The notes beneath the pieces were generated by a model. The model saw only the letters and a program-made list of their open reading frames with translations. It searched no databases and was not told where the DNA came from. Made by a program: the position numbers and the translations under genes. A stretch of DNA of 54,830 nucleotides. Origin: Planctomycetota bacterium. Its GTDB lineage: Bacteria; Planctomycetota; Phycisphaerae; Phycisphaerales; SM1A02. Where the stretch lies: positions 1-54,830 of the forward strand of contig JACNLO010000047.1 of assembly GCA_014381555.1 (NCBI GenBank), written 5' to 3'. Below are positions 34,761 to 53,577 of the stretch, one piece after another; the stretch's first letter is position 1, and every line of letters begins with the position of its first letter.

Positions 34761-35914
34761 AATTACTACACTATTTTCCATCAACCAGATTCACTGAGGG
34801 TGGAACAGTCCGCGCGGCGATTGATTTTTGCTCTGTACTCGCAAGACGTGGGCACGATGTAACATGGTTGACTTGTGATGATTACGATGTTCCACAATCT
34901 TGGAAAGACAAGGAACCAAATACTCCAACAATCAAGCTTCTCGGACCTCTTCAAAAAACTGGAAAGCGATTAACAAAACAGCAAATTTCAAAAGCTGCTG
35001 AAGTTGCTAAAGAAATGGATGTTACGCATATCCATGCAATGTGGATGCCGTCAAACCCTCAAATGGCAAAAGCGTGTGACTCTGTTGGGACACCTTGGGT
35101 GTTAAGTACTCACGGCATGCTCGATGATTGGTGTATGGAACAACGTCCACTTAAGAAAAAACTGTATTTGTCAACCGTCGGTAGAATTATGTTGCGTGGG
35201 GCGAATACTTTTCTAACGACTGCAGAAGCTGAGAAAAGCCAATCTGAAAAATGGCTTAAACATGAGAATATTGCTGTCATCCCATACATCGTAGACCTAG
35301 ACCCGTACCAAGATGTACCAAGCCCACAAGAAGCAATAGACAAATATGGGGTTGTAGATGAGCCAACAGTGCTATTTTTAAGCAGAGTTCATGAGAAGAA
35401 ATCAATTGAAACTTTAATAGATGCAACTGCTATTCTAAATGAAAGAGGCTACCCTATCCGCGTATTTATTGCAGGCACAGGAGAGGATACATACATCAAA
35501 TCCTTGCAAGACCGAGCGAGCGCCGCTGGAGTTAGCAAACTCGTTACTTTTTTAGGAATGGTCGTTGGAGACTTAAAACTTTCGTTATATGCAATGGCAG
35601 ACATTTTTGCATTACCAACTCAACAAGAGAACTTTGGTCTTGTATATACCGAAGCGATGCTTTGTGAAACTCCTGCCATTGGGACTAAAGGGACTGACAT
35701 CTGGAAGGAGCTTGAAGAAGGCGGTGCGGTAATTGCTGATCGAACTCCTCAAGCATTTGCAGATGCAATCCAAACGCTAACTTCAGACAAGGAACTTCTA
35801 AAGGTGAAGGGTGTTGAAGGAAGGAAGCGCATTCTTAAATGGCTTGACACTGAGACCGTTGCATCAAAATATGAGAATATGTATCAAAGTGCTTCTAGCG
35901 GACATCAATTGTAA
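34757..35914 (+). CDS. GT4-family glycosyltransferase
   Basis: A 385-residue GT-B enzyme. The N-terminal half has the GG-T acceptor-side loop (FTEGGTVRAAIDF). The C-terminal half has the donor-binding pattern LFLSRVHEKKSIETLIDA, then PTQQENFGLVYTEAMLCETPAIGT with the E-x7-E motif. The ATG at 34757 overlaps the sulfotransferase stop by 4 nt and gives the family N-terminus MKLLHYFP. It probably transfers a sugar from a nucleotide donor in surface-glycan synthesis. The donor and acceptor cannot be read. Its last 20 nt overlap the opposing chagasin-like gene. Confidence 0.93.
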   Translation: MKLLHYFPSTRFTEGGTVRAAIDFCSVLARRGHDVTWLTCDDYDVPQSWKDKEPNTPTIKLLGPLQKTGKRLTKQQISKAAEVAKEMDVTHIHAMWMPSNPQMAKACDSVGTPWVLSTHGMLDDWCMEQRPLKKKLYLSTVGRIMLRGANTFLTTAEAEKSQSEKWLKHENIAVIPYIVDLDPYQDVPSPQEAIDKYGVVDEPTVLFLSRVHEKKSIETLIDATAILNERGYPIRVFIAGTGEDTYIKSLQDRASAAGVSKLVTFLGMVVGDLKLSLYAMADIFALPTQQENFGLVYTEAMLCETPAIGTKGTDIWKELEEGGAVIADRTPQAFADAIQTLTSDKELLKVKGVEGRKRILKWLDTETVASKYENMYQSASSGHQL

Positions 35915-36317
35915 ACACCTCTACTCTTGTAGGTAGCACATCTGTTTCCCATTGACGTTTATAGGAAAAAGTTAGTTTTGTTTCACCAGTTTTACCCGTT
36001 CTAAGTGACCAAGTGGTTTCACCACTCACACCAACTCGCCCGCTTGAATCTGGAGTATATCTGTGAGAGACATTATGTACAACTTCTGGGTGATTGATGC
36101 TTAACACCCAGTCGTATCCAGTACTAGGATTGCTTGGCAGAACAATTTCAAATGTCCGATTTGGCGCAAGTACAATTTCTCTGCTTGCATCTGCTGAAGA
36201 AAATGAACGCTTTCGAACGCTTCCATCGTCTTTAGATAACATGGAGCATGCGGGTACAAACAGCAAGATGCAAATGAGTGTGCTTCGTATCATTATCAAA
36301 GCATACCACTTTTTCAT
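35895..36317 (-). CDS. Chagasin-like (I42) cysteine-peptidase inhibitor lipoprotein
   Basis: A 140-residue protein with a lipoprotein signal (lipobox VPAC, C24). An immunoglobulin-like inhibitor domain follows. The three chagasin loops are recognisable: N63-P-S-T-G-Y68, then GVSGETTW, then KRQW in place of the usual RPW. Chagasin-type proteins inhibit papain-like cysteine peptidases. Its ATG directly follows the TGA of the upstream permease gene, so it is probably translated as the last gene of the metal-transport operon. Why an inhibitor belongs there is unclear. Confidence 0.82.
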   Translation of the reverse strand: MKKWYALIMIRSTLICILLFVPACSMLSKDDGSVRKRSFSSADASREIVLAPNRTFEIVLPSNPSTGYDWVLSINHPEVVHNVSHRYTPDSSGRVGVSGETTWSLRTGKTGETKLTFSYKRQWETDVLPTRVEVFTIDVR

Positions 36318-37604
36318 TCATTCTTCATCCGGGACGGGGCTTCCATGAGGGTCAACCTCTGCATGCCCAAGATTACTTTCCATAGCATCTGTTGTCACAT
36401 GCTCAAGCCGAGACGCAGCATGATGTAATTGGTGCGTATCTTGTGGGAAATGTTTGTCAAGATAAACTTCCCATAGACGGTGTGAGCGAACTAATTTTGT
36501 CGCATTTGTACGTCCTCTTTCTGTCAGTGACCAGCTAGAAGCCGTTTTTGATACCGAGCCCCTCTTCTTCAAACTCAACAGTGCCATTCGAACCGACAGT
36601 TCCGTTGTACCAATAGCTTCGGACAATTGAATTGGTAACATTTTCCCTTGCCCACGTTCTTCTAACCTCCATAGTAATCCAAGAATGTCTTCGCGAATAA
36701 CTAGAATGCGCACTGATAAGCGCCTCCACAACCGTGAAATCATGCCTTGATTTGGTGATACTAATAAAACAACAATAAATAATACCCCGGTGGCAACTGC
36801 CATTGCCCCCGCCGTACTTGTTCCCGAAAAACCAAACCAGGTTGGAATTGTAATTGCAGAAAGATGACCGAGTGCTGCTGCAACAATCGACAAGGCTATT
36901 GAGAAAACAAACATCATCCCAAACCGATTCGTAAGCAGATATGCCGTAGCTGGTGGAACAATAAACATTGCAACAACAAGAATAGAACCGACTGTTTCAA
37001 ACGCGGCAACCGCGGTTGTCGCTGTCATCGTCATCAATAAGTAGTGCATAAATGATGGCTGAATGCCTTGCGATTTTGCAAGCGCAGGATCAAACGAAGT
37101 TATTTTGAACTCCTTGTAAAAAAGGAGAACGACAAATAAATTTGCTAAAAGCATAACACTGTTAACGATTGCTCCGCGCGGAATGCCCAAGCCATCGGGT
37201 TCTTGATCAAACCACGCAAGTTCAATTGAACCATACAGTACACAATCTGGATCAATGTCAACATGGTCAACTGCTTGACGCATTAGCACAAGGCCAAATG
37301 CAAACAATACCGTAAAAACAATACCCATAGACGCGCCAGCTTCCACCTTGCCAAGCGATTGAATCCCTTGAATTAGAAAGGCTGTCAACAAACCGACAGC
37401 AACCGACCCAATGAGCATCGCTGTTGGGTCTCTGCTTCCAGTAACTAAAAATGCAATTGCGATTCCGGGAAGAACAGTATGACTAATTGCATCGCCCATC
37501 ATGCTCATTCGCCTAAGAACTAAAATCGTTCCGGGAATTGCACAGCCAGCAGCGCAAAGTGCGCCAATAATAATAATCCAAGTATCGATAATTGACCAAC
37601 TCAT
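36318..37604 (-). CDS. Metal ABC transporter permease fused to a DtxR-like regulator module (first copy)
   Basis: 428 residues. Residues about 1-290 form a MntB/ZnuB-type permease with eight or more membrane segments (GDAISHTVLPGIAIAF, EAGASMGIVFTVLFAFGL, AFETVGSILVVAMFIVPPATAYL). After the last helix comes a winged-helix part (about 305-365) and a DtxR dimerisation domain (372-428) ending DPHGSPVP. Aligned with DtxR, metal ligands H79 and E83 match H375 and E379; H98, E105 and H106 match H394, E401 and H402. C102 is replaced by S398. It overlaps the other permease gene by 4 nt. Confidence 0.92.
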   Translation of the reverse strand: MSWSIIDTWIIIIGALCAAGCAIPGTILVLRRMSMMGDAISHTVLPGIAIAFLVTGSRDPTAMLIGSVAVGLLTAFLIQGIQSLGKVEAGASMGIVFTVLFAFGLVLMRQAVDHVDIDPDCVLYGSIELAWFDQEPDGLGIPRGAIVNSVMLLANLFVVLLFYKEFKITSFDPALAKSQGIQPSFMHYLLMTMTATTAVAAFETVGSILVVAMFIVPPATAYLLTNRFGMMFVFSIALSIVAAALGHLSAITIPTWFGFSGTSTAGAMAVATGVLFIVVLLVSPNQGMISRLWRRLSVRILVIREDILGLLWRLEERGQGKMLPIQLSEAIGTTELSVRMALLSLKKRGSVSKTASSWSLTERGRTNATKLVRSHRLWEVYLDKHFPQDTHQLHHAASRLEHVTTDAMESNLGHAEVDPHGSPVPDEE

Positions 37605-38953
37605 TGCTGTTCTCCAACTGGATGTGGGCTTTTGGGCAACGCTGGTGTTTCCAATAGCAATTCAAGTTTTGCTACAAGATCTCGTCCTAGGACATGTTCA
37701 ATCATGTCAGCATCTCGGTCGACATGTGTTGGAGCAATGTCGGCGTGAGTAATTAAATATACTTCCCACAAACGGTGATTACGAACAACTCTTGATGCTT
37801 CTGCAGAACCCTTCTGAGTTAACCTCCAGTTTTTAGCTGAAACTCGTGTTGCAAAATGCAACTTCTCACAACGCCTAAGCAATTTACTGACGGTTCGTTT
37901 GCTCCATGAACGGACGTAGACTATTTCTTCGATTGAAAATTGAGATGTTTCTGTATCTTCACTCACTTCCCACATCGCACGCAAAATGTGTTGCATCGAA
38001 ATTCGTCTATTTAGTCGCAACCGTGTAATCTGACGGATAATTAGTCCATCCACAGGGCCAACAATAAAACTAAATATAAACCAAAACCCGCAAATCAAAA
38101 CAATGATTGGACCTGTTGGCATTCTCGGAATAAGGGCGCTCGTTATCCCGCCAAGCCATCCACTCAAACAACCTATGATTGCTGCTGCAATCAACATGCT
38201 TGAAATTTTTGTCGTCCAATATCTGGCAGAAGTTGCGGGAATAATCAACATTGCAACGGCAAGAACAAGTCCAACTGATTGCAAGGCGATAACCGTGACA
38301 ATTGCAACCATCGCCATCAGTAAGACATCGAGCCAAAGCATTGGCCAACCCTGCACTGCTCCAAATTTTTCATCAAAACATAAAAGAGTCCATTCCTTAC
38401 GAAGTATCCCTATCACTATTGCCACCCCAAGAGCAACTACTCCCATTGTTAATGCGTCGTTTGCGACCATAGACGCTGCTTTGCCAAAAATAAAACCGTT
38501 CAAACCCGCGGTATTTCCGTTTGGCAATTCGGTAGCGATTCGAAGCAAACAAAGTCCAAGACCAAACAAGACGCTGAGAACAATACCAATTGCTGCGTCA
38601 TCTTTTAGACGAGTCGTGTGGCGTATTCCAAGAATTGCAAGAACACCGATGCAACCAAAAACAAATGCTCCAATCAGTAACCCTAATAAATTTTTCCCTT
38701 CACCACCAAGGGCAACCATTACCATAAATGCGATGGCAATTCCTGGAAGTGTTGCGTGGCTAAGTGCATCAGCAGTAAGTGCTCTTCTTCTTAGGATCAA
38801 AAATGTTCCTACTAATCCTGCAGCCGTTCCAAGTGCCATTACTCCTAAGACAACAACTCTCGTGTTGTACTCTTCTAAAGTGAGCACTTGAACGATTTGT
38901 TCAAGCGATGGAAGAGACACCCTTGAGTCGGAAATAGAGTGGTTTGCTATCAA
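37601..38953 (-). CDS. Metal ABC transporter permease fused to a DtxR-like regulator module (second copy)
   Basis: 450 residues, with the same layout as its downstream neighbour. A MntB/ZnuB-type permease occupies about 1-300 (ADALSHATLPGIAIAF, KDDAAIGIVLSVLFGLGL, LQSVGLVLAVAMLIIPATSARY). A winged helix follows at about 318-385, then a DtxR dimerisation-like domain from 389. H393 and E397, and E419 and H420, match DtxR metal ligands. The H98 and C102 positions are aspartates (D412, D416). The C-terminus is short and lacks the DPHGxPIP end. The two permeases probably form a heterodimeric channel. It overlaps the ATPase gene by 4 nt. Confidence 0.92.
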   Translation of the reverse strand: MIANHSISDSRVSLPSLEQIVQVLTLEEYNTRVVVLGVMALGTAAGLVGTFLILRRRALTADALSHATLPGIAIAFMVMVALGGEGKNLLGLLIGAFVFGCIGVLAILGIRHTTRLKDDAAIGIVLSVLFGLGLCLLRIATELPNGNTAGLNGFIFGKAASMVANDALTMGVVALGVAIVIGILRKEWTLLCFDEKFGAVQGWPMLWLDVLLMAMVAIVTVIALQSVGLVLAVAMLIIPATSARYWTTKISSMLIAAAIIGCLSGWLGGITSALIPRMPTGPIIVLICGFWFIFSFIVGPVDGLIIRQITRLRLNRRISMQHILRAMWEVSEDTETSQFSIEEIVYVRSWSKRTVSKLLRRCEKLHFATRVSAKNWRLTQKGSAEASRVVRNHRLWEVYLITHADIAPTHVDRDADMIEHVLGRDLVAKLELLLETPALPKSPHPVGEQQ

Positions 38954-39726
38954 TGACGCGCCATTCTCTCTACCGCTTCTGAGAGTAGTGTTAATCTTCC
39001 GCCATACGTTTTCTTAAGATTCTCTTCGGTAAATATATCTTCAACTCGCCCGTGAGCAACAACACGCATGTTCAACAAAATTACATGGCTAAAGTATTCG
39101 CGGACAGTTTGCAAATCATGATGTACAACCACAACGGTTTTTCCAGAGGATCGTAAATCACTAAGTACTTTTACAATCGCTTTCTCGGTTGCTGCATCCA
39201 CACTAGCAAATGGTTCATCCATGAAATAGATTGTTGAGTCCTGAGCAAGCGCTCGGGCAAGAAAAACTCGTTGCTGTTGTCCACCTGAAAGTTGGCTGAT
39301 TTGCCTTCTTGCATAATCAGACATACCAACCCGTTCAAGTGCATCCATAGCTCGTTTGTAATCTATTTTTCGTACTGGCTTACACCATCCGATACGACTG
39401 TACCTTCCCATGGTTACCACGCCAAGTGCATCAATTGGAAAATCCCAGTCGACGGATTCTCGCTGCGGAACATAAGAAACGAGTTTGCGTTGCTTTTTAA
39501 AAGTATTACCGTAAATCATCACTTTGCCAGAAGCTTTTGGAACAAGATCCATCACCGCTTTAATAAGAGTGCTTTTTCCCGCTCCGTTTGGGCCAACGAT
39601 GGCGATGAGTTTTCCTTCTGGAATATCTAAGTCGACATCCCAAAGAACCGGTTTGCGGTTATATGCAACAGTTAAGTCGTGAATAGAAACTGGAGATGTT
39701 GGTGAATGACCTGCTTCAACCTTCAT
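38950..39726 (-). CDS. Metal ABC transporter ATP-binding protein
   Basis: A 258-residue ATPase of the Mn/Zn/Fe uptake class (MntA, ZnuC, TroB types). Walker A is GPNGAGKST (45-53). The signature is QLSGGQQQRVFLARAL, Walker B is IYFMDEPFASVD, and the switch histidine is in VVHHDL. It should energise the two fused permeases encoded directly downstream. Its start shares one nucleotide with the stop of the binding-protein gene. Confidence 0.95.
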   Translation of the reverse strand: MKVEAGHSPTSPVSIHDLTVAYNRKPVLWDVDLDIPEGKLIAIVGPNGAGKSTLIKAVMDLVPKASGKVMIYGNTFKKQRKLVSYVPQRESVDWDFPIDALGVVTMGRYSRIGWCKPVRKIDYKRAMDALERVGMSDYARRQISQLSGGQQQRVFLARALAQDSTIYFMDEPFASVDAATEKAIVKVLSDLRSSGKTVVVVHHDLQTVREYFSHVILLNMRVVAHGRVEDIFTEENLKKTYGGRLTLLSEAVERMARH

Positions 39727-40673
39727 TACTCACCCACTTTTTTTCTACCAGTTTTCTGAGCAAAACCACCGCTAGTGGCTTCTCCGCCAAGAGCTTTTGT
39801 TATTGTCGTAATATTATGGTCGAGCATACCTATGTATGTCCCCTTGTATGTACCGGTTTTTCCCATCGCATCAGAAAAAAGACGGCCACCAATGATAACA
39901 GTGTGCCCCTTTGACTTTGCGCCTTCTATAAGTGCTTTTACATTTCGATCCGACACACTTGATTCAACAAAAACCGCTGTGATTCCTTTATCAACAAGCA
40001 TGTTTACAAGACGATTAACATCTTCAATGCCCGCTTCGGATTCTGTGGAAAGTCCTTGAATGCCAACAACTTCAATACCATACGCACGCCCAAAATAGTT
40101 GAATGCATCGTGTGCTGTGATAAGAACACGTTGTTCTTCAGGTATTGATGCAATTGAGTCAATTGCATACGAATGAAGTTTTGCGAGTTGTTCGTTGTAT
40201 TGTTTTGCGTTTTCTTTGTACTCATCGCAATGTTCAACATCTTGTTCACAAAGTGCGTTTGCAACTGCATCAACTGCTTGTGACCAAGCAGAAACATCCA
40301 TCCAAACGTGCGGATCCCAGTGGCCTTCAAATTCTGGCGGTTCAAGTAAGTATGTTTCTTCAATGAGTTCAGTCACTGGAAACACAACCTTTCCCATGCG
40401 TGCTGCTTTAAGAAACGTATCCGTCATACGCCCTTCAAGAAGTAAACCACTATAAAAAATCATGTCCGAATTCATAATTTTGCGAGCATCTGCTGAAGTC
40501 GGTTTGTATAGGTGTGGGTCTACTCCCTCTCCCATAAGCGCGGTGACGGTTCCATAATTGCCTACAACTTGGCGAGTAATGTCTGCAACCATCCCAGTTG
40601 TCGCAACGATATTTAACTCCGCAAACGAACTTGAAGCAAACGTCGCGGTCAATAACAGTGTTTTTAATAACAC
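39726..40673 (-). CDS. TroA/ZnuA-type periplasmic metal-binding protein
   Basis: A cluster A-I solute-binding protein of about 315 residues with a signal peptide. The start taken is the GTG at 40671-40673, six nt after AAAAGGAG. Counting from it, metal ligands are H54 (VDPHLYKP), H122 (WDPHVWMD), H188 (ITAHDAFNYF) and D268 (LFSDAMG). The H-H-H-D set is that of TroA and ZnuA; Mn-specific PsaA and MntC have Glu at the third place. There is no His-rich loop as in ZnuA. The GLSTESEAG stretch is typical of the TroA/MntC branch. Mn or Zn transport cannot be decided from this gene alone. Confidence 0.94.
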   Translation of the reverse strand: MLLKTLLLTATFASSSFAELNIVATTGMVADITRQVVGNYGTVTALMGEGVDPHLYKPTSADARKIMNSDMIFYSGLLLEGRMTDTFLKAARMGKVVFPVTELIEETYLLEPPEFEGHWDPHVWMDVSAWSQAVDAVANALCEQDVEHCDEYKENAKQYNEQLAKLHSYAIDSIASIPEEQRVLITAHDAFNYFGRAYGIEVVGIQGLSTESEAGIEDVNRLVNMLVDKGITAVFVESSVSDRNVKALIEGAKSKGHTVIIGGRLFSDAMGKTGTYKGTYIGMLDHNITTITKALGGEATSGGFAQKTGRKKVGE

Positions 40674-40698
40674 AAATGGCTCCTTTTGGTTAGTCAAA

Positions 40699-40727
40699 AG
40701 TTTACTCTATGGTATGCTATAAGTCAA
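40699..40727 (-). promoter_or_regulatory. Promoter of the metal operon with an operator-like palindrome in its spacer
   Basis: On the minus strand TTGACT (40722-40727) and TAAACT (40699-40704) are separated by exactly 17 nt. This is a near-consensus housekeeping promoter with a start predicted near 40692. The spacer contains TATAGCATACCATA (40708-40721), an imperfect palindrome with 10 of 14 positions symmetric. The DtxR-type regulator gene starts on the other strand at 40731. A regulator bound here would block both genes. Confidence 0.65.
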
Positions 40728-40730
40728 GCC

Positions 40731-41387
40731 ATGATTTCAAGTACCGTCGAAAACTACCTCAAAGAGCTCTTTTTGCTCGATCCACGCAGCGAGAAACAGA
40801 TCGCAACCGGAGAGTTAGCAAAAGTTCTCTGCGTCACGCCAGGCTCTGCTACTTCCATGATTAAAACCCTCGCCCAAAGCGGACTTGTTGAACACCGCCC
40901 ACACTACGGTGTCAAACTCACTGAACAAGGAAGAAATCTTGCAGTGCACGTCGTTCGTAGGCACCGTATTGTCGAACTATTTCTTGTCAACATTCTTGGC
41001 ATGGATTGGGGTGAAGTACACGATGAGGCGGAACAACTTGAACATGTTGTTTCTGATGATGTGATTACAAGAATGGATGAATTACTTGGACACCCTACAC
41101 ACGACCCACACGGCGATCCCATTCCAACTCCCGAAGGTGAAATTCCGGAACGTTCGTTACAATTGCTTTCTTTTTGTAACGAAGGCGACAACGTTGCAAT
41201 TGCTAGAATCGGAAATCAAGACGCCGCATTTTTAAAGTTCGCAGAAGATAATGGCTTACTTCTTGGCGCATCCATTGAAATCAAACATCGCAATGACATC
41301 GCCGATTCCATCACGATTCAATCACAAGGTAAAGAAGTCGTGCTTGGACTTGCTGCTGCGGGAAGAATTGAAGTTGAAGATGTGTAA
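40731..41387 (+). CDS. DtxR/MntR-family metal-dependent repressor
   Basis: 218 residues. A winged helix (about 5-65) precedes a dimerisation and metal domain (about 66-140) with the DPHGDPIP end. A FeoA/SH3-like domain follows (about 150-218). Aligned with DtxR, ligands are H78, E82, H97, E101, E104 and H105. E101 replaces Cys102 of DtxR as in MntR, which favours Mn over Fe. N8 stands at the DtxR Met10 / MntR Asp8 position, which is unusual. It is divergent from the metal operon with a shared control region, so it is very probably that operon's regulator. Confidence 0.94.
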   Translation: MISSTVENYLKELFLLDPRSEKQIATGELAKVLCVTPGSATSMIKTLAQSGLVEHRPHYGVKLTEQGRNLAVHVVRRHRIVELFLVNILGMDWGEVHDEAEQLEHVVSDDVITRMDELLGHPTHDPHGDPIPTPEGEIPERSLQLLSFCNEGDNVAIARIGNQDAAFLKFAEDNGLLLGASIEIKHRNDIADSITIQSQGKEVVLGLAAAGRIEVEDV

Positions 41388-42270
41388 ATTGTTACTCATC
41401 CCTGTGCTGCTTGCCTGCGCTAGCTGCAATTCCACACATCAAGCTCCAGTATCAACCATTACCGCTCATGCAATACTACAAGATGTTTCGTGGCTAGCCT
41501 CAGACGAAATGCGTGGGAGACACTATCGTTCAAACGAAGCAAGAAAAGCAGCAAAATATATCGCAGACAAATGGAAACTTGCAGGGTTCACTCCTCTTCC
41601 AACCAAAACCTCGATGTATCTTCCAACTGGCGACGCCCGGAATGCACCGAACGTTGGAGCGATGTACCAAGGAGAAGGTGATTCATTCGTTGTAATAACC
41701 GCACATTACGACCACTTAAAACCAAGACGCTCAGGAATAGATAGAATTTACAACGGTGCTGACGATAACGCATCTGGCACTGCCGCTCTCATAGCAATTG
41801 CACAAGCACTCTCAAAAGTAAAAACACCTTTGCAAAGTTCGATCGTGCTAATCGCTTTCACTGGTGAAGAGGCGGGTCTTGTTGGTTCCAAACATTTTGC
41901 AAGCAATTCCCCATTTCCTCTTTCTAAAATCAAGGGGCTAATTAATCTCGACATGATAAGTAGAGGTGAACCAAATACAATTTTTCTTGAAGGTGCTCCA
42001 GATGCACCACGAATCAATATGGCGATTGTCAGAGCAAACAAACAAATTGGGCTCAACATCGTGCGAAACGAACATCCAGATTGGCTCTACCGAAGCGACC
42101 AAGCACCATTTCTTGAGAAAGGCGTGCCAGCTGTTTTTTTAAGTGTTGAAGATCATGAGGACTACCACCGCGTTACTGATCATGTTGAAAAAATTATTCC
42201 AGAACTTGCTACAAAAACTACGCAGCTTACGTTTCTCACCGCAATTGACCTTGCGTCTGGTGTACCCTAA
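41380..42270 (+). CDS. M28-family aminopeptidase lipoprotein
   Basis: 296 residues. The signal has the lipobox LLAC with C12. A short N-terminal region precedes the zinc peptidase domain: HYDHLK supplies the first His, YNGADDNASGTA the bridging Asp, TGEEAGLVGS the Glu pair and LDMIS the next Asp. DHEDYHRVTDH near the end supplies the last His. All five dinuclear-zinc positions are present. It acts on peptides outside the cytoplasm. The start overlaps the repressor gene by 8 nt, so the two may be co-transcribed. Confidence 0.92.
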   Translation: MCKLLLIPVLLACASCNSTHQAPVSTITAHAILQDVSWLASDEMRGRHYRSNEARKAAKYIADKWKLAGFTPLPTKTSMYLPTGDARNAPNVGAMYQGEGDSFVVITAHYDHLKPRRSGIDRIYNGADDNASGTAALIAIAQALSKVKTPLQSSIVLIAFTGEEAGLVGSKHFASNSPFPLSKIKGLINLDMISRGEPNTIFLEGAPDAPRINMAIVRANKQIGLNIVRNEHPDWLYRSDQAPFLEKGVPAVFLSVEDHEDYHRVTDHVEKIIPELATKTTQLTFLTAIDLASGVP

Positions 42271-49568: not shown

Positions 49569-50633
49569 ATGGCAGAGCGGAACACAATGAGAACCAACGC
49601 GGGACGGTGGGGATGGATAATACCTATCCTCCTTCTGACATCGCTCGTGGCTAATATTTTGGGAATTATCCTTCCATTTTTAGAAATTGACGAGGCATTT
49701 CACGGAAAAGTTATTTATAGTTTGCCCCACTCTGTCTATTTGATGTGGGAACACAAACTCTACTTCATCTCAGGTCTCATCCTCGGGTTCTCGATCATCT
49801 TTCCATTCGTAAAACTCTTTTCACTCTTCGCACTTTGGTTCATTCCTTGGAAATCAAAAAACCGTGAGCGATATCTTCACGTCATTGAACTTCTTGGCAA
49901 GTGGTCCTATATGGATATTTTCGTTGTCATTTTGCTCGTTACCCTTACAAGTAAACAGTCTTTTATTTCGTCATCTATTCATGTGGGGGTCTACTACTTC
50001 ATTGGTGCAATTACACTTAGCATGATTACTTCTGGAGTCATTATGACTCTTGCACGAAAAACTTGTAATAAAGAAGCACCAAGAAAATTCAAATCTGATA
50101 AACGACGCTGGATGTTGTTCGACAATATCTATCTCGGATGGATTGTTCCTGTGCTTGTACTCGCATCAGCGGCAACCCTTATTGAATCGCTTAACGCAAC
50201 CTTTCTACGCATAAGCCAAATGTTTTTGGTATCCAGATCGTATAGCATCAGCGAAATCTTCACTTTAATGTACAGCCAAAAACATTGGGTACTGCTCATT
50301 ATTATGGTTGGAACACTTTTTGTTGTGCCCCTGCTTCGACTTACCATTTTATTGTTTTCATGGATTATTCCATTCTCTCCAAAGAAACACACTAAAGTAA
50401 AATATGTAATTGATGAGTTTTCAAGGTGGAGCATGCTCGATGTATTTGGCCTAGCCTTATTTTTAATTACAACCGAGGGCAAAGACTTAGTAAAAACAGA
50501 AATCCAACCCGGACTCTACATCGTCGTTGCTGCAATTGGTTCAAGTTATTTGCTAGCAGTCATTGCAATCATGTTGAATAAGGCAATGCTACACTCAAAC
50601 ACTATTTCTGCAACGTCTTCAGATACTCAATAA
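49569..50633 (+). CDS. PqiA-like (paraquat-inducible protein A) membrane protein
   Basis: 354 residues, with eight or so membrane segments in two homologous halves. Each half contains the PqiA hallmark: LLGKWSYMDIFVVILLV and EFSRWSMLDVFGLALFLI. Each also has an upstream VPLLRL- or FPFVKLF-type segment. The usual PqiA cysteine pairs at the start of each half are not seen. PqiA works with MCE proteins (PqiB) in lipid transport in E. coli, and no MCE gene is adjacent here. The first ATG is used. The end overlaps the opposing dehydrogenase gene by 32 nt. The 49400-49568 spacer upstream has no evident gene. Confidence 0.88.
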   Translation: MAERNTMRTNAGRWGWIIPILLLTSLVANILGIILPFLEIDEAFHGKVIYSLPHSVYLMWEHKLYFISGLILGFSIIFPFVKLFSLFALWFIPWKSKNRERYLHVIELLGKWSYMDIFVVILLVTLTSKQSFISSSIHVGVYYFIGAITLSMITSGVIMTLARKTCNKEAPRKFKSDKRRWMLFDNIYLGWIVPVLVLASAATLIESLNATFLRISQMFLVSRSYSISEIFTLMYSQKHWVLLIIMVGTLFVVPLLRLTILLFSWIIPFSPKKHTKVKYVIDEFSRWSMLDVFGLALFLITTEGKDLVKTEIQPGLYIVVAAIGSSYLLAVIAIMLNKAMLHSNTISATSSDTQ

Positions 50634-53577
50634 CATCTCGTATTTCTCTTTTGCTAAGCAAAACACCCATTGGCGGCATCGCTGAATAATCACCAAAACC
50701 CTCTGCGACATTTTCGTTTGGGTAAAGCAAAGCTGCCAACAGTTGATCCTCGTCTAAACGATTAGCAACGTCATCTAATGGCGGTCCAGCAATACCACCT
50801 TCCCCTTCTATTTTATGGCAGCGTAAACATTCACTCTTTGAATTCTCAAACACGATTTGTTTGCCGATAATTCCATTCCCACCATGGAGCAACCACGCGT
50901 CTTCTATTTCTTTATTCCACGGTTCTGCAAAATCTAATTGCAATTCGTCTCGAAGAGTTTCATTGTCAATCTTGGAAAATACAAGTGGTCTTCTAGTGAG
51001 GGTTTTAATTGCTTCTTGTGCTTCAAAGATTTCACCAACTTGGATAGCTTCAAGCAATAGTTTTTCAGCGGACAAATCATTTTGACTAAGCAAAACATCC
51101 CTAGCCACAGAGCGAAGTTTCCAGTGTTCACTTTGCAGGGCATATTCAATTAGGTCCTTGTTATCATTCACCTGTAGTGCATACGCACGTATTGAGACTG
51201 GCATTTTTTCATCAAGAACAAACTTATCGCAAAGTTCTTTTGGAAACAATCCGCTACTTGAAGAAACGAACCGTAGGGTTTCCATAAGAAGCTCACCCTC
51301 TGCACTCGTGAACAATGCATGAATTGCATCATCAACGCCTTCAATGCAAATGAAGCTCATGTGTTTTCTCGGTATCACCCTACCCTCAACAATATCTCTA
51401 TCCGCTTTAGAAGGACTTGGGGGACCCCAATTGTTCAACGCTTGCATCGCAAGCAACCTCATTTCGTACGGCTTGGTTGCATCTGCCGCAAACTCAGCAA
51501 CACGCACACTTCCATAGCAATCGTGTTCCATTTTATTTGCGCTAATTGCCCGTTTCTGCCACGGAATTGTCCGTGCATGAGATAGTGATGCCGCAAGAGT
51601 CTGCCTTGCCCCTTCTTCATCACCATAGCCACGCCCATCAATACGCCCATCGTGGATTGCTCTTGCAGCTTCAGTTGCAACATCATCATCCGGATCGTTC
51701 AAATAGTCGGCGACAAATTCCGATTCCATTCTTCGAAGCACCAATACCGCTGCAAGACGAACCGCTTGGCTCGGATGGGTTTGCAAGTTTGCCATCGCTG
51801 CTGCGTACTGCGTCTTCGTTAGAGCAACTACTCCAGCGTGTCGCAAATATACATCTTCATTGTTGTTGCGCTCAAGCATTGCAATAATTGCATCTTTTGC
51901 ATTACCAAGATAACCAAGCGCCATAGTTGCGAAATACGAAACTCGTGAGTTTGGATCATCAATCAACGCAACAATTTTTGCAAATGCTTTTGTGAAGTGC
52001 GCTTCGCCAAGAATTTTGCATGCCTGCACACGGATTTCAGGATCAAGGTCATCAAGAAGTGGAGCAACGAATTCCATACATCTCTCCCCACTTCGATCAA
52101 TCATCGCAAGAGCCCACATCGCATGGATACGTACAAGTTGATTATCGCTTTGCAGTGCTTTTGCAAGTGCGAGAGTGTTCTTTCGATCCGCAAGTTCATA
52201 CTGCGCGCGAATTCGAACACGCCTATCAACATGCGACAACATTTGAATTAACGTGTCTACTGGTAATGAGGTAAATCCACTTGCAAATATTTCAGACACA
52301 TCGCCATCTGCAACGTGCGATTCATCCCAAACAGAGTACAGACGACCCTCTTCGTTTCCAGTCCAACCCTCGCCCCAATCGCTAATCACCATCTTACCGT
52401 TGTATCCAAAATCAACATCGGTGCACAAAACCTTTTCAACAAACGGATGAAGGTCGACCATGTTGAAATGTGCTCCATCTGGTTCAAGTGCAAAACTTAA
52501 GACGCTAGAATGCTCAGCCCCACCACGAAAATCGCACATGAAAAAATGGTCGTTATACCTTTCTGCAAAACCACCACCCGGATACGCAACAAGCCCAGAT
52601 GGCCCCGAGCCAATCACATCAATTGCAGGAAGAATCCATGCTGGACGATCTTTGTTATGAGGATCCCAACCATTTTCGGTTACCCAAGGTCCTCGTTCAT
52701 TAGCACCCTCGAGCGTTTGGTATTCCATCCGCCAACCGGTCTCGCCACCTTCTACGCAGTAGACCAATCGGGCTTTGTCGATTGCGTCGGAATTGTTGTC
52801 TCCAGTGAACAGGTTCCCATAGTTGTCAAAGGCAAGTTCTTGCGGATTGCGAAGCCCATGATGAAAAACTTCCAAATTCGCCCCATCAAGTTCACTTCTA
52901 AAGACCGCGCCTTCACCCGGACTGTGCAATTCTTTTCCGTTATCAAGTTCAATGTGATAGCCGCGATCACCAATCGACCAATACATGCGACCATCTAAAC
53001 CCAATGCAAGCCCGTGCATGTCGTGCCCACGAAGTGCGGTACGTACGCCAAACCCAGCACCAAAAAGTGATTCTCTTTTTCCGTCTTCTATTTTCCACAC
53101 GTGCGGTATGCATGTGTAATACACCGAATCTCCAATTGCAAGCACACCGGCACCAGTTCCATCGAGCGGGTCGTTAAATCCATCTGCAAAAATCGTTGCT
53201 GTTTCAAATACACCGTCGCCATCTTGGTCTTCAAGTTTTCGAATTCGATCTTCAAACTCCGAGTAATACGCCATCCCGTTTTGACGTTGGTCGGCAAATC
53301 GTTCATACATTCTCAGGCGGCTCTCTACCGATTGCAATCGCAAATCCCAATCAAGCCAGAACGAACTTGAACGATTGTCCTCCACGCCCTGCTCTTGCCG
53401 AAATGATTCAGCAACAAGGATGTTTCCATCGTCATCAAAACAGAATGCAACAGGATCCATAATTTCTGGTTCCGTTGCAATTAGTTGTTTTGAAAAACCA
53501 TCTGGCACTTGCATCAAGTCAAATGCGGTTTCCGGAGTCCCCCAAAAAATCACCGAAGCAAGAACACTTAACACCAT
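50602..53577 (-). CDS. PVC-type membrane-bound dehydrogenase with HEAT repeats and haem c
   Basis: 991 residues with a signal peptide. The N-terminal part (about 20-440) is a propeller dehydrogenase domain (FDLMQVPDGFSKQLIATEPEIMDPVAF, FDNYGNLFTGDNNSDAID). Next are HEAT-like repeats (about 460-900; LDDLDPEIRVQACKILGE, LNDPDDDVATEAARAI). At the end is a small cytochrome c domain with C917-LR-C920-H921 and an axial Met in SAMPPMG (about 967). This architecture is characteristic of planctomycetes and verrucomicrobia and is thought to oxidise sugars or polyols. It is overlapped by 10 nt by the M24 gene upstream, so the two are probably co-transcribed. Confidence 0.93.
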   Translation of the reverse strand: MVLSVLASVIFWGTPETAFDLMQVPDGFSKQLIATEPEIMDPVAFCFDDDGNILVAESFRQEQGVEDNRSSSFWLDWDLRLQSVESRLRMYERFADQRQNGMAYYSEFEDRIRKLEDQDGDGVFETATIFADGFNDPLDGTGAGVLAIGDSVYYTCIPHVWKIEDGKRESLFGAGFGVRTALRGHDMHGLALGLDGRMYWSIGDRGYHIELDNGKELHSPGEGAVFRSELDGANLEVFHHGLRNPQELAFDNYGNLFTGDNNSDAIDKARLVYCVEGGETGWRMEYQTLEGANERGPWVTENGWDPHNKDRPAWILPAIDVIGSGPSGLVAYPGGGFAERYNDHFFMCDFRGGAEHSSVLSFALEPDGAHFNMVDLHPFVEKVLCTDVDFGYNGKMVISDWGEGWTGNEEGRLYSVWDESHVADGDVSEIFASGFTSLPVDTLIQMLSHVDRRVRIRAQYELADRKNTLALAKALQSDNQLVRIHAMWALAMIDRSGERCMEFVAPLLDDLDPEIRVQACKILGEAHFTKAFAKIVALIDDPNSRVSYFATMALGYLGNAKDAIIAMLERNNNEDVYLRHAGVVALTKTQYAAAMANLQTHPSQAVRLAAVLVLRRMESEFVADYLNDPDDDVATEAARAIHDGRIDGRGYGDEEGARQTLAASLSHARTIPWQKRAISANKMEHDCYGSVRVAEFAADATKPYEMRLLAMQALNNWGPPSPSKADRDIVEGRVIPRKHMSFICIEGVDDAIHALFTSAEGELLMETLRFVSSSSGLFPKELCDKFVLDEKMPVSIRAYALQVNDNKDLIEYALQSEHWKLRSVARDVLLSQNDLSAEKLLLEAIQVGEIFEAQEAIKTLTRRPLVFSKIDNETLRDELQLDFAEPWNKEIEDAWLLHGGNGIIGKQIVFENSKSECLRCHKIEGEGGIAGPPLDDVANRLDEDQLLAALLYPNENVAEGFGDYSAMPPMGVLLSKREIRDVIEYLKTLQK

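Follow-up and report, generated by a model that had tools for sequence, protein, structure and literature searches.

The analysed stretch of DNA (54,830 nucleotides of contig JACNLO010000047.1 from a Planctomycetota bacterium of the order Phycisphaerales, below called the window) encodes a metal-importer operon on its minus strand. The operon is composed of a substrate-binding protein, an ATP-binding cassette (ABC) ATPase, and two ABC-3 permeases, B and C, and each permease carries a C-terminal PF02742 domain of the kind found in DtxR repressors (Table 1). In permease C (428 aa), the ABC-3 domain spans residues 10-281 (E 3e-46) and Fe_dep_repr_C (PF02742) residues 361-426 (E 5.6e-15). The corresponding domains of permease B (450 aa with the TTG start as listed) are at residues 32-298 (E 2.2e-56) and 379-438 (E 3.4e-15). 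The DtxR-like C-terminal domains, which the initial annotation had assigned to both permeases from the sequence alone, are confirmed by the domain search and by the fold match of AlphaFold2 models. A chance match of the tails was rejected based on the E values of about 1e-15, the fold match, and the conservation across the order.

The ABC-3 domain, the PsaBC-like fold, and the operon with an ATPase and a ZnuA-type binding protein identify the importer as belonging to the PsaC/TroC type. The divergently encoded stand-alone DtxR protein, also noted in the initial annotation, contains PF01325 and PF02742 together with a FeoA domain, and is a repressor of the DtxR/MntR type. The 1.99 Mb draft genome contains exactly three PF02742 matches (E <= 0.001), which belong to the two permeases and the stand-alone protein.

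Table 1 Features of the metal-importer locus
Feature	Position	Strand	Basis
Permease C, PsaC-like ABC-3 permease with C-terminal DtxR-type tail, 428 aa	36318-37604	-	Domain search, model
Permease B, ABC-3 permease with C-terminal DtxR-type tail, 450 aa, TTG start as listed	37601-38953	-	Domain search, model
C residues 288-306, helical linker from rear of last membrane helix to DtxR helix 1 (ligand position D306)	36687-36743	-	Model helix 288-316; constant spacing
B residues 304-322, helical linker to DtxR helix 1 (ligand position H322)	37988-38044	-	Model helix 304-334; constant spacing
C residues 324-347, helix-turn-helix equivalent, sequence unconstrained	36564-36635	-	Conservation, model
B residues 341-364, helix-turn-helix equivalent, sequence unconstrained	37862-37933	-	Conservation, model
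C residues 362-402, metal/dimerization helices (H375, E379, H394, E401, H402)	36399-36521	-	Domain search, alignment, structure match
B residues 380-420, metal/dimerization helices (H393, E397, D412, D416, E419, H420); low model confidence from 401	37694-37816	-	Domain search, alignment, structure match
C residues 418-425, DPHGSPVP, end of two-domain DtxR unit; no FeoA/SH3 domain after it	36330-36353	-	Domain search, alignment
ABC ATPase of importer, best matches Mn/Fe-type, below family cut-offs	38950-39726	-	Domain/family search
Substrate-binding protein, ZnuA/AztC family; start probably GTG 40673 (behind AAAAGGAG), not TTG 40697	39726-40673	-	Family search; start predicted
Palindromic operator candidate CTTTTGGTTAGTCAAAAG	40683-40700		Kept in 13/13 genomes of the genus
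Stand-alone DtxR/MntR-type repressor with FeoA domain	40731-41387	+	PF01325 and PF02742 (and FeoA)

Predicted structures of the tailed permeases

The AlphaFold2 monomer models, calculated from 44-row alignments of the proteins of the window and of related loci, have mean predicted local distance difference test (pLDDT) values of 91.6 for C and 88.6 for B, and a predicted template modelling score of 0.84 each. The permease cores match PsaBC, the manganese importer of Streptococcus pneumoniae (7kyp/7kyo), at Z 32-33, and the similarity of the permease folds extends over 258-285 residues at Z 30-33. However, PsaBC aligns to the permease core only (up to model residue 291 in C and 320 in B), and no PsaBC match to the tails is among those listed. 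The tail of C is similar to DtxR (2qq9; Z 18.4, 1.9 Å, 129 residues), a manganese repressor (5zr6; Z 18.0, 1.3 Å, 124 residues), and DR2539 (8pw0; Z 17.8, 1.6 Å, 126 residues). The tail of B resembles DtxR less closely (2qq9; Z 13.5, 3.4 Å, 126 residues). In each model, one continuous helix that includes helix 1 of the DtxR unit begins within a few residues of the end of the last membrane helix (residues 288-316 in C and 304-334 in B). Both the fold and the continuous linker helix come from predicted models.

Metal-ligand positions are conserved in the tails

The register of the ligand positions was derived from sequence alignments, in which the offset of C is constant at 296 and agrees with where the structural match begins (residue 299 opposite DtxR residue 3). 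Residues D306, H375, E379, H394, S398, E401, and H402 of C align with M10, H79, E83, H98, C102, E105, and H106 of DtxR, which we take to be the numbers of the DtxR ligands. The counterparts of these positions in B are H322, H393, E397, D412, D416, E419, and H420. Every ligand position named in the initial annotation (H375, E379, H394, E401, and H402 in C; H393, E397, E419, and H420 in B) is correct. The alignments add the helix-1 position (D306 in C and H322 in B) as well as D412 and D416 of B, and the motif DPHG..P at the end of C (D418 and H420) was also absent from the earlier list.

The PF02742 domain is present in 75/75 tails of the order, and its ligand positions, other than that of C102 in C tails, are each conserved in at least 35 of the 37-38 tails of a type. 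Among the 38 B tails, H79, E105, and H106 are invariant and the positions of H98 and C102 are always occupied by Asp, whereas E83 and the helix-1 His are each found in 37. The C tails have H79, E83, and H98 in 36/37, E105 and H106 in 37/37, the helix-1 Asp in 35/37, and mixed residues at the position of C102. B-type tails from outside the order are looser (H106 in 29/33, helix-1 His in 20/33), for which misalignment may be part of the cause. The helix-1 metal position of the stand-alone repressor is Asn in 11 and Asp in two of the 13 genomes of the genus; MntR-like proteins have Asp at this position.

The DNA-reading helix of the tails has lost constraint

The comparison with the stand-alone repressor is decisive, because the genomes that encode the tails supply it as a built-in control. 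In the 13 genomes of the genus, pairwise identities in the recognition helix average 0.90 for the stand-alone protein, 0.34 for the B tail, and 0.30 for the C tail. The identities for the metal helices are 0.88, 0.78, and 0.75 (helix a4) and 0.85, 0.94, and 0.79 (helix a5), in the same order. The stand-alone protein preserves the recognition helix better than the B tail does in 78/78 genome pairs and better than the C tail does in 78/78, whereas it preserves the metal helices better in 41/78 (B) and 71/78 (C) pairs. The pooled ratios of nonsynonymous to synonymous polymorphism (pN/pS) of helices a2 and a3 are 0.16 for the stand-alone protein, 0.67 for the B tail, and 0.69 for the C tail, and those of a4 and a5 are 0.11, 0.15, and 0.21; all pN/pS values are relative only, because synonymous sites are near saturation.

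The Pfam model of the DtxR DNA-binding domain, PF01325 (threshold E <= 0.01), is matched by 49/50 stand-alone proteins of the window's type (37/37 and 12/13; the protein of locus L056 misses). These proteins had been selected for resemblance to the stand-alone protein of the window (>60 bits), and the set is biased towards its type. As a check, 28 stand-alone frames of other types were taken from the order, of which 24 match; two more, a fragment of a tail (L081) and a truncated frame (L080), were excluded. PF01325 was detected in only 2/75 tails of the order (0/25, 1/25, and 1/25), neither of which is from the window, in 0/29 tails from Chlamydiia, and in 2/23 from Bacteroidota. All proteins of the eight sets match PF02742.

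The helix-turn-helix stretch, measured from helix 1 to the wing, has 41-45 residues in the stand-alone proteins and ranges from 23 to 76 in the fused ones. It is shorter than 36 residues in 5/37 C tails and 0/38 B tails of the order, in 1/33 B-type and 0/36 C-type tails from elsewhere, in 1/24 tails from Bacteroidota, and in 3/30 from Chlamydiia, compared to 0/50 stand-alone proteins. In three fusions from Chlamydiia (L182, L183, and L188), the helix-turn-helix is mostly gone and the main metal motifs are kept, a state difficult to reconcile with the release of a DNA-binding repressor in these species.

These comparisons indicate that the DNA-reading helix of the tails has lost constraint, and that the metal-ligand positions are conserved. 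The window tails resemble the DtxR/MntR repressors (DtxR, IdeR, and DR2539) in fold and metal-ligand positions, but differ from them in being fused to a membrane protein, in ending without an SH3/FeoA domain, and in having a DNA-binding domain that is mostly unrecognizable and unconstrained. The tails are set apart from the repressors because both PF01325 and a conserved recognition helix were looked for and neither was found. The binding of DNA by the tails, one of the options put forward in the initial annotation, is disfavoured since the recognition helix is unconstrained or shortened.

Comparison with YtgR of Chlamydia

Within the open-access literature covered, permease fusions of this kind are described for Chlamydia only, as repressor precursors. 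The tail of Chlamydia YtgC-YtgR (CT069, YtgCR) is reported to be cleaved and to act as an iron-dependent DNA-binding repressor (PMC5599777, PMC7755916). No description of permease-DtxR fusions outside Chlamydia was found in searches of an open-access full-text library. As with YtgCR, the metal-importer operon of the window encodes an ABC-3 permease that ends in a DtxR-type domain, and the fused permease of the Chlamydiia loci scores as B-type and has a tail with the same ligand motifs. However, one permease is fused in Chlamydiia (30/30 loci read in detail, each with a B-type fusion and a free second permease) and 41/43 matching genomes have no second PF02742 match. In the window, both permeases are fused, a stand-alone DtxR protein is present, so that the fused domain is not the only DtxR-type domain of the genome, and the recognition helix is unconstrained.

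Ten Chlamydia-like genomes with a common insertion in the helix-turn-helix (presumably of this genus; the WWW motif reported for YtgC is present in five) allow the measure to be calibrated. Their recognition helix is 0.53 identical with pN/pS 0.43, and the metal helices are 0.72-0.74 identical, whereas helix a2 (0.59) and the wing (0.65) are looser. The stand-alone proteins from Bacteroidota have similar values (recognition helix 0.52, pN/pS 0.40, metal helices 0.66-0.76). The recognition helix is 0.29 identical with pN/pS 0.69 in the other 20 tails from Chlamydiia, 0.25 with 0.75 in the tails from Bacteroidota, and, across the order, 0.22 with 0.86 in B tails and 0.24 with 0.82 in C tails. 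The measure thus appears to detect constraint where DNA reading is reported, and detects none in the lineage of the window.

As in Chlamydia, the tails of the window could be released by cleavage and function as soluble repressors that depend on metal, either alongside the stand-alone DtxR protein or jointly with it. Cleavage and repression are reported for the homologous chlamydial fusion (PMC5599777, PMC7755916), and the model of C keeps the whole DtxR fold with its winged helix. However, constraint on the recognition helix is lacking in both tails of the genus, several lineages have a shortened one, PF01325 is nearly absent from the tails of the order, and the near-invariant length of the linker is unexpected for a throw-away tether. 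Furthermore, a stand-alone repressor and a conserved palindrome are already there. We consider it unlikely that the tails are released as repressors.

The linker has a fixed length

Where the last membrane helix ends in a PxxG motif, the glycine lies 19 residues from the ligand position of helix 1 in 177/178 fusions (B-type 21/21 and 20/20; C-type 37/37 and 35/36; Bacteroidota 23/23; Chlamydiia 27/27; single or other 14/14). The motif is missing from 35 of the 213 fusions, which are therefore not measurable by this spacing. In free alignments of six sets, gaps in the last 45 columns affect 2/38, 0/37, 0/33, 0/36, 1/24, and 0/30 rows. In the single-permease set 14/15 rows are gapped, and in the three rows printed the gap site precedes the motif. 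Of 213 linkers, 13 contain proline, which in 12 cases occupies the first of the 17 positions. Variation would be expected of a flexible tether or a cleavable spacer, whereas a helix of fixed length fits mechanical coupling of the metal site to the membrane helix.

Alternatively, the tails may receive the ion leaving the channel and hand it on, without control of the transport cycle. The location of a ligand-rich domain directly behind the pore-forming domain agrees with such a role. Nevertheless, helix 1 is held in register with the last membrane helix by the nearly gap-free linker, which suggests coupling over delivery, and a function as a mere metal acceptor is very unlikely. Separate expression of the tail from an internal start was also rejected: permease C of the window has an in-frame ATG at residue 288, but Met is found there in only 11/178 fusions with PxxG.

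Operator candidate at the shared promoter

The palindrome CTTTTGGTTAGTCAAAAG (40683-40700) is located between the genes of the binding protein and the stand-alone repressor and is self-complementary at 14/18 positions. A matching stretch with the consensus CTTTTGATTAATCAAAAG occurs in 13/13 genomes of the genus and is fully palindromic in several. The initial annotation had placed the palindrome at 40708, which we read as falling in a -10-like stretch; the one kept in the 13 genomes is at 40683-40700. The operator place is the sole zero-mismatch match to TTTTGRTTARTCAAAA in the genome of the window. With one mismatch allowed, the promoter place is matched in 13/13 genomes of the genus, extra scattered places appear in six genomes (G000, G002, G003, G004, G005, and G012), and a reversed control pattern matches in eight. 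With two mismatches, the reversed control is nearly as frequent in the genome of the window (18 against 16). Another imperfect palindrome in the 201 bases taken from the window, GTGTTTTTAATAACAC, scores higher than the candidate (14/16 against 14/18 positions); the candidate is distinguished by its conservation only. A constant operator suits the stand-alone protein, whose recognition helix is constant too, but not the tails, whose helices vary freely. The stand-alone protein presumably binds the palindrome.

A variant of the palindrome, TTTTGATAAATCAAAA, recurs away from the importer promoter in G002, G005, and G012. An operator-like site at 51080, with one mismatch on one strand, is located inside the open reading frame 50602-53577 and is read as a chance match. 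In the start region of the binding protein (40671-40697, minus strand), the listed TTG at 40697 falls inside the operator candidate.

Distribution and age of the fusion

The best relatives of the locus in a wider contig scan are metagenome-assembled genomes (MAGs) of Phycisphaerae/Phycisphaerales of the Planctomycetota, with L093 (Phycisphaeraceae bacterium, JANQHD) at the top. Both fusions and the stand-alone protein are present in 13/13 genomes of the genus, although the genes are on different contigs in G003 and G010. The core of permease B, a query unbiased towards fusions, was searched in 61 genomes (the window's own and 60 relatives) and matched in 48, of which 42 at >=190 bits were taken as B orthologues. 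With the length of the open frame as a stand-in for fusion, 38/42 orthologues have a frame of at least 430 codons, as in the fused proteins. Of the six weaker matches, three are single-permease fusions (G045, G056, and G057); the others are in G028, G043, and G055.

The 45 classified loci of the order, which were fetched because they hold PF02742, comprise 35 with both permeases tailed (B+C+), three B+C-, two B-C+, three with only B+, one with only C+, and one with only B-. Since L082 and L042 derive from a single genome, one B+C- and the sole C+ actually make up one B+C+. The wider scan gave 74 classified loci (33 B+C+, 24 B+C-, 5 B-C+, and 12 single, some of them cut by contig ends), from which no frequencies can be derived, as they were chosen by tail pattern from the best 80 of 591. 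Among the same best 80 of 591, the loci from Bacteroidota and Balneolota have mostly one B-type fusion, a free C permease, and often a stand-alone repressor. PF02742 is matched in 54 of 98 genomes drawn from the phylum, 12 of which, by our reading, have two long frames in tandem. In Chlamydiia 43/45 genomes match, always with the main match in a frame of 413-474 codons, and only two have a second match. The fused architecture is old; similar fusions in other genomes of the Planctomycetota-Verrucomicrobiota-Chlamydiota group, which the initial annotation had mentioned, do exist, and Bacteroidota carry them too.

The tails might serve in assembly, pairing via the DtxR dimerization helices and holding B to C, or joining two copies of one permease, with a purely structural role of the metal. 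The dimerization helices are conserved, and single-permease loci are tailed too (L066, L075, L076, and others in the wider scan, best 80 of 591). However, many loci have one tail only (24 B+C- and 5 B-C+ of the 74), and therefore a tail-tail heterodimer within one transporter is not general. A role restricted to assembly is rather unlikely.

A quick tree was calculated from 123 of 277 different rows and 121 columns, with Shimodaira-Hasegawa-like approximate likelihood ratio support only; 51/120 of its forks are open, long branches affect four rows, and the label 'Sgl' includes some rows that are only contig fragments (L042, L122, L148, and L155). In this tree, 28 B-type tails (27 from Planctomycetota and one from Latescibacterota) form one group (support 98), as do 24/25 stand-alone proteins (100). 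A larger fork (86) is common to C-type tails, stand-alone proteins, and single-permease tails. The B and C tails of the window fall in starred groups composed of tails only, and an origin of the tails as recent copies of the neighbouring repressor is not supported. The tails could instead act as co-regulators that form heterodimers with the stand-alone DtxR protein and sequester it at the membrane, where the initial annotation had also suggested a pairing, since the PF02742 dimerization domain is common to both. However, the window tails and the stand-alone protein are in different groups of the tree, most deep forks of which are weak, and the fusions persist in Chlamydiia, where a second match is found in only 2/45 genomes. 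We give such sequestration hardly any weight.

Only one permease, with a tail, was found in L066, L075, L076, L141, L145, L150, L160, L163, L165, L171, and L172; these permeases may form homodimers, although the loci close to contig ends are unsure. Both tails, and no stand-alone PF02742 match, are present in L046 (G016) and L049 (G019), which are from drafts 95-96% complete. Four frames of 349-384 codons (L050:2747-3793, L061:2667-3818, L062:3601-4689, and L071:4243-5316) have a DtxR metal domain nearest to those of C tails and no permease match, and at least the L050 frame is also without PF01325. A MAG from Bacteroidota (L170) contains two adjoining stand-alone DtxR-type frames of 233 and 352 codons.

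Proposed mechanism of metal sensing by the tails

The operon probably encodes a PsaBCA-like importer of a divalent metal, presumably Mn2+ or Fe2+, in which each permease would bear a built-in cytosolic metal sensor corresponding to a DtxR unit without the SH3/FeoA domain. At high cytosolic concentrations, Mn2+ or Fe2+ would bind between helix 1 and the two conserved metal helices and clamp them. Helix 1 is predicted to extend rigidly, and over a set length, from a point shortly after the last membrane helix. The metal could lock the two tails together, as in the metal-loaded DtxR dimer, and act on the last membrane helix and on the pairing of the permeases. The transport cycle would then stop by trans-inhibition, although the sign of the effect could be activation. 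The same metal would enable the stand-alone DtxR protein to read the operator at the shared promoter and shut off transcription. We give roughly an even chance to this reading of the tails as rigidly coupled metal sensors that feed back on transport, with DNA left to the stand-alone protein. Control of the transporter by metal, which the initial annotation had raised as gating of the channel, is favoured because the ligand positions and the nearly gap-free linker are conserved over several phyla. The fusion, the ligand conservation, the linker length, the loss of constraint on the DNA-reading helix, and the palindrome are all read from sequence.

The regulatory domains of MetNI and ModABC are on the ATPase and have different folds, whereas the DtxR-like domains of the window are on the permeases. 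In the window, a domain with ligand positions is fused to the transporter subunits, and is a candidate for the regulatory substrate-binding domain of a trans-inhibited importer. Trans-inhibition, in which substrate-dependent regulation is built into the importer, is known for the ABC importers MetNI and ModABC (PMC10710835). The importer of the window would share such regulation, possibly as inhibition.

Several observations weigh against the tails being metal sensors. Residues 401-450 of B, which include four ligands and the second metal helix, have pLDDT of only 50-69, and the tail model of C is a complete DtxR unit including the winged helix. Two tails of the order do match PF01325, the pN/pS contrasts are relative, and the homologous tail of Chlamydia is reported to be cleaved and to bind DNA (PMC5599777, PMC7755916). 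In the ten Chlamydia-like genomes, the recognition helix of this tail is constrained like that of a stand-alone repressor. The C tail of L059 is without the H79, E83, and H98 ligands, and the helix-1 position is mostly Asn, a weak ligand, in tails from Bacteroidota (21/24) and Chlamydiia (19/30). The constant length of the linker may be due in part to common descent, although the helix-turn-helix stretch of these fusions varies from 23 to 76 residues. The tails are also dispensable, as 4/42 B orthologues are short (G013 306, G029 329, G030 342, and G054 373 codons); G030 and G054 retain the C tail, and in G013 and G029 the sole PF02742 match is the stand-alone protein.

The fused architecture as such is known from Chlamydia, and the combination of two DtxR tails freed from DNA reading on an importer with a separate repressor appears to be new. 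Tentatively, and with somewhat less assurance than for the window itself, we propose that metal-gated ABC importers are widespread and unrecognized in Planctomycetota, Bacteroidota, and most Chlamydiia, with the metal domain of a repressor serving as an allosteric sensor on a helix of fixed length without reading DNA, and that YtgR is an exception that retained or regained DNA reading. If the tails do act as sensors, importers of Mn or Fe would have a direct post-translational brake, as shown for MetNI and ModABC, and a DNA-binding regulator would have been reused as a mechanical part of a membrane pump. The question bears on how one chlamydial protein can serve as both permease and repressor.

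Neighbouring features

No RNA families were detected within positions 36000-42000 at the gathering threshold. A gene for a chagasin-type peptidase inhibitor (PF09394, E 1e-23; 35895-36317, minus strand) is positioned directly behind permease C and may belong to the same transcript.

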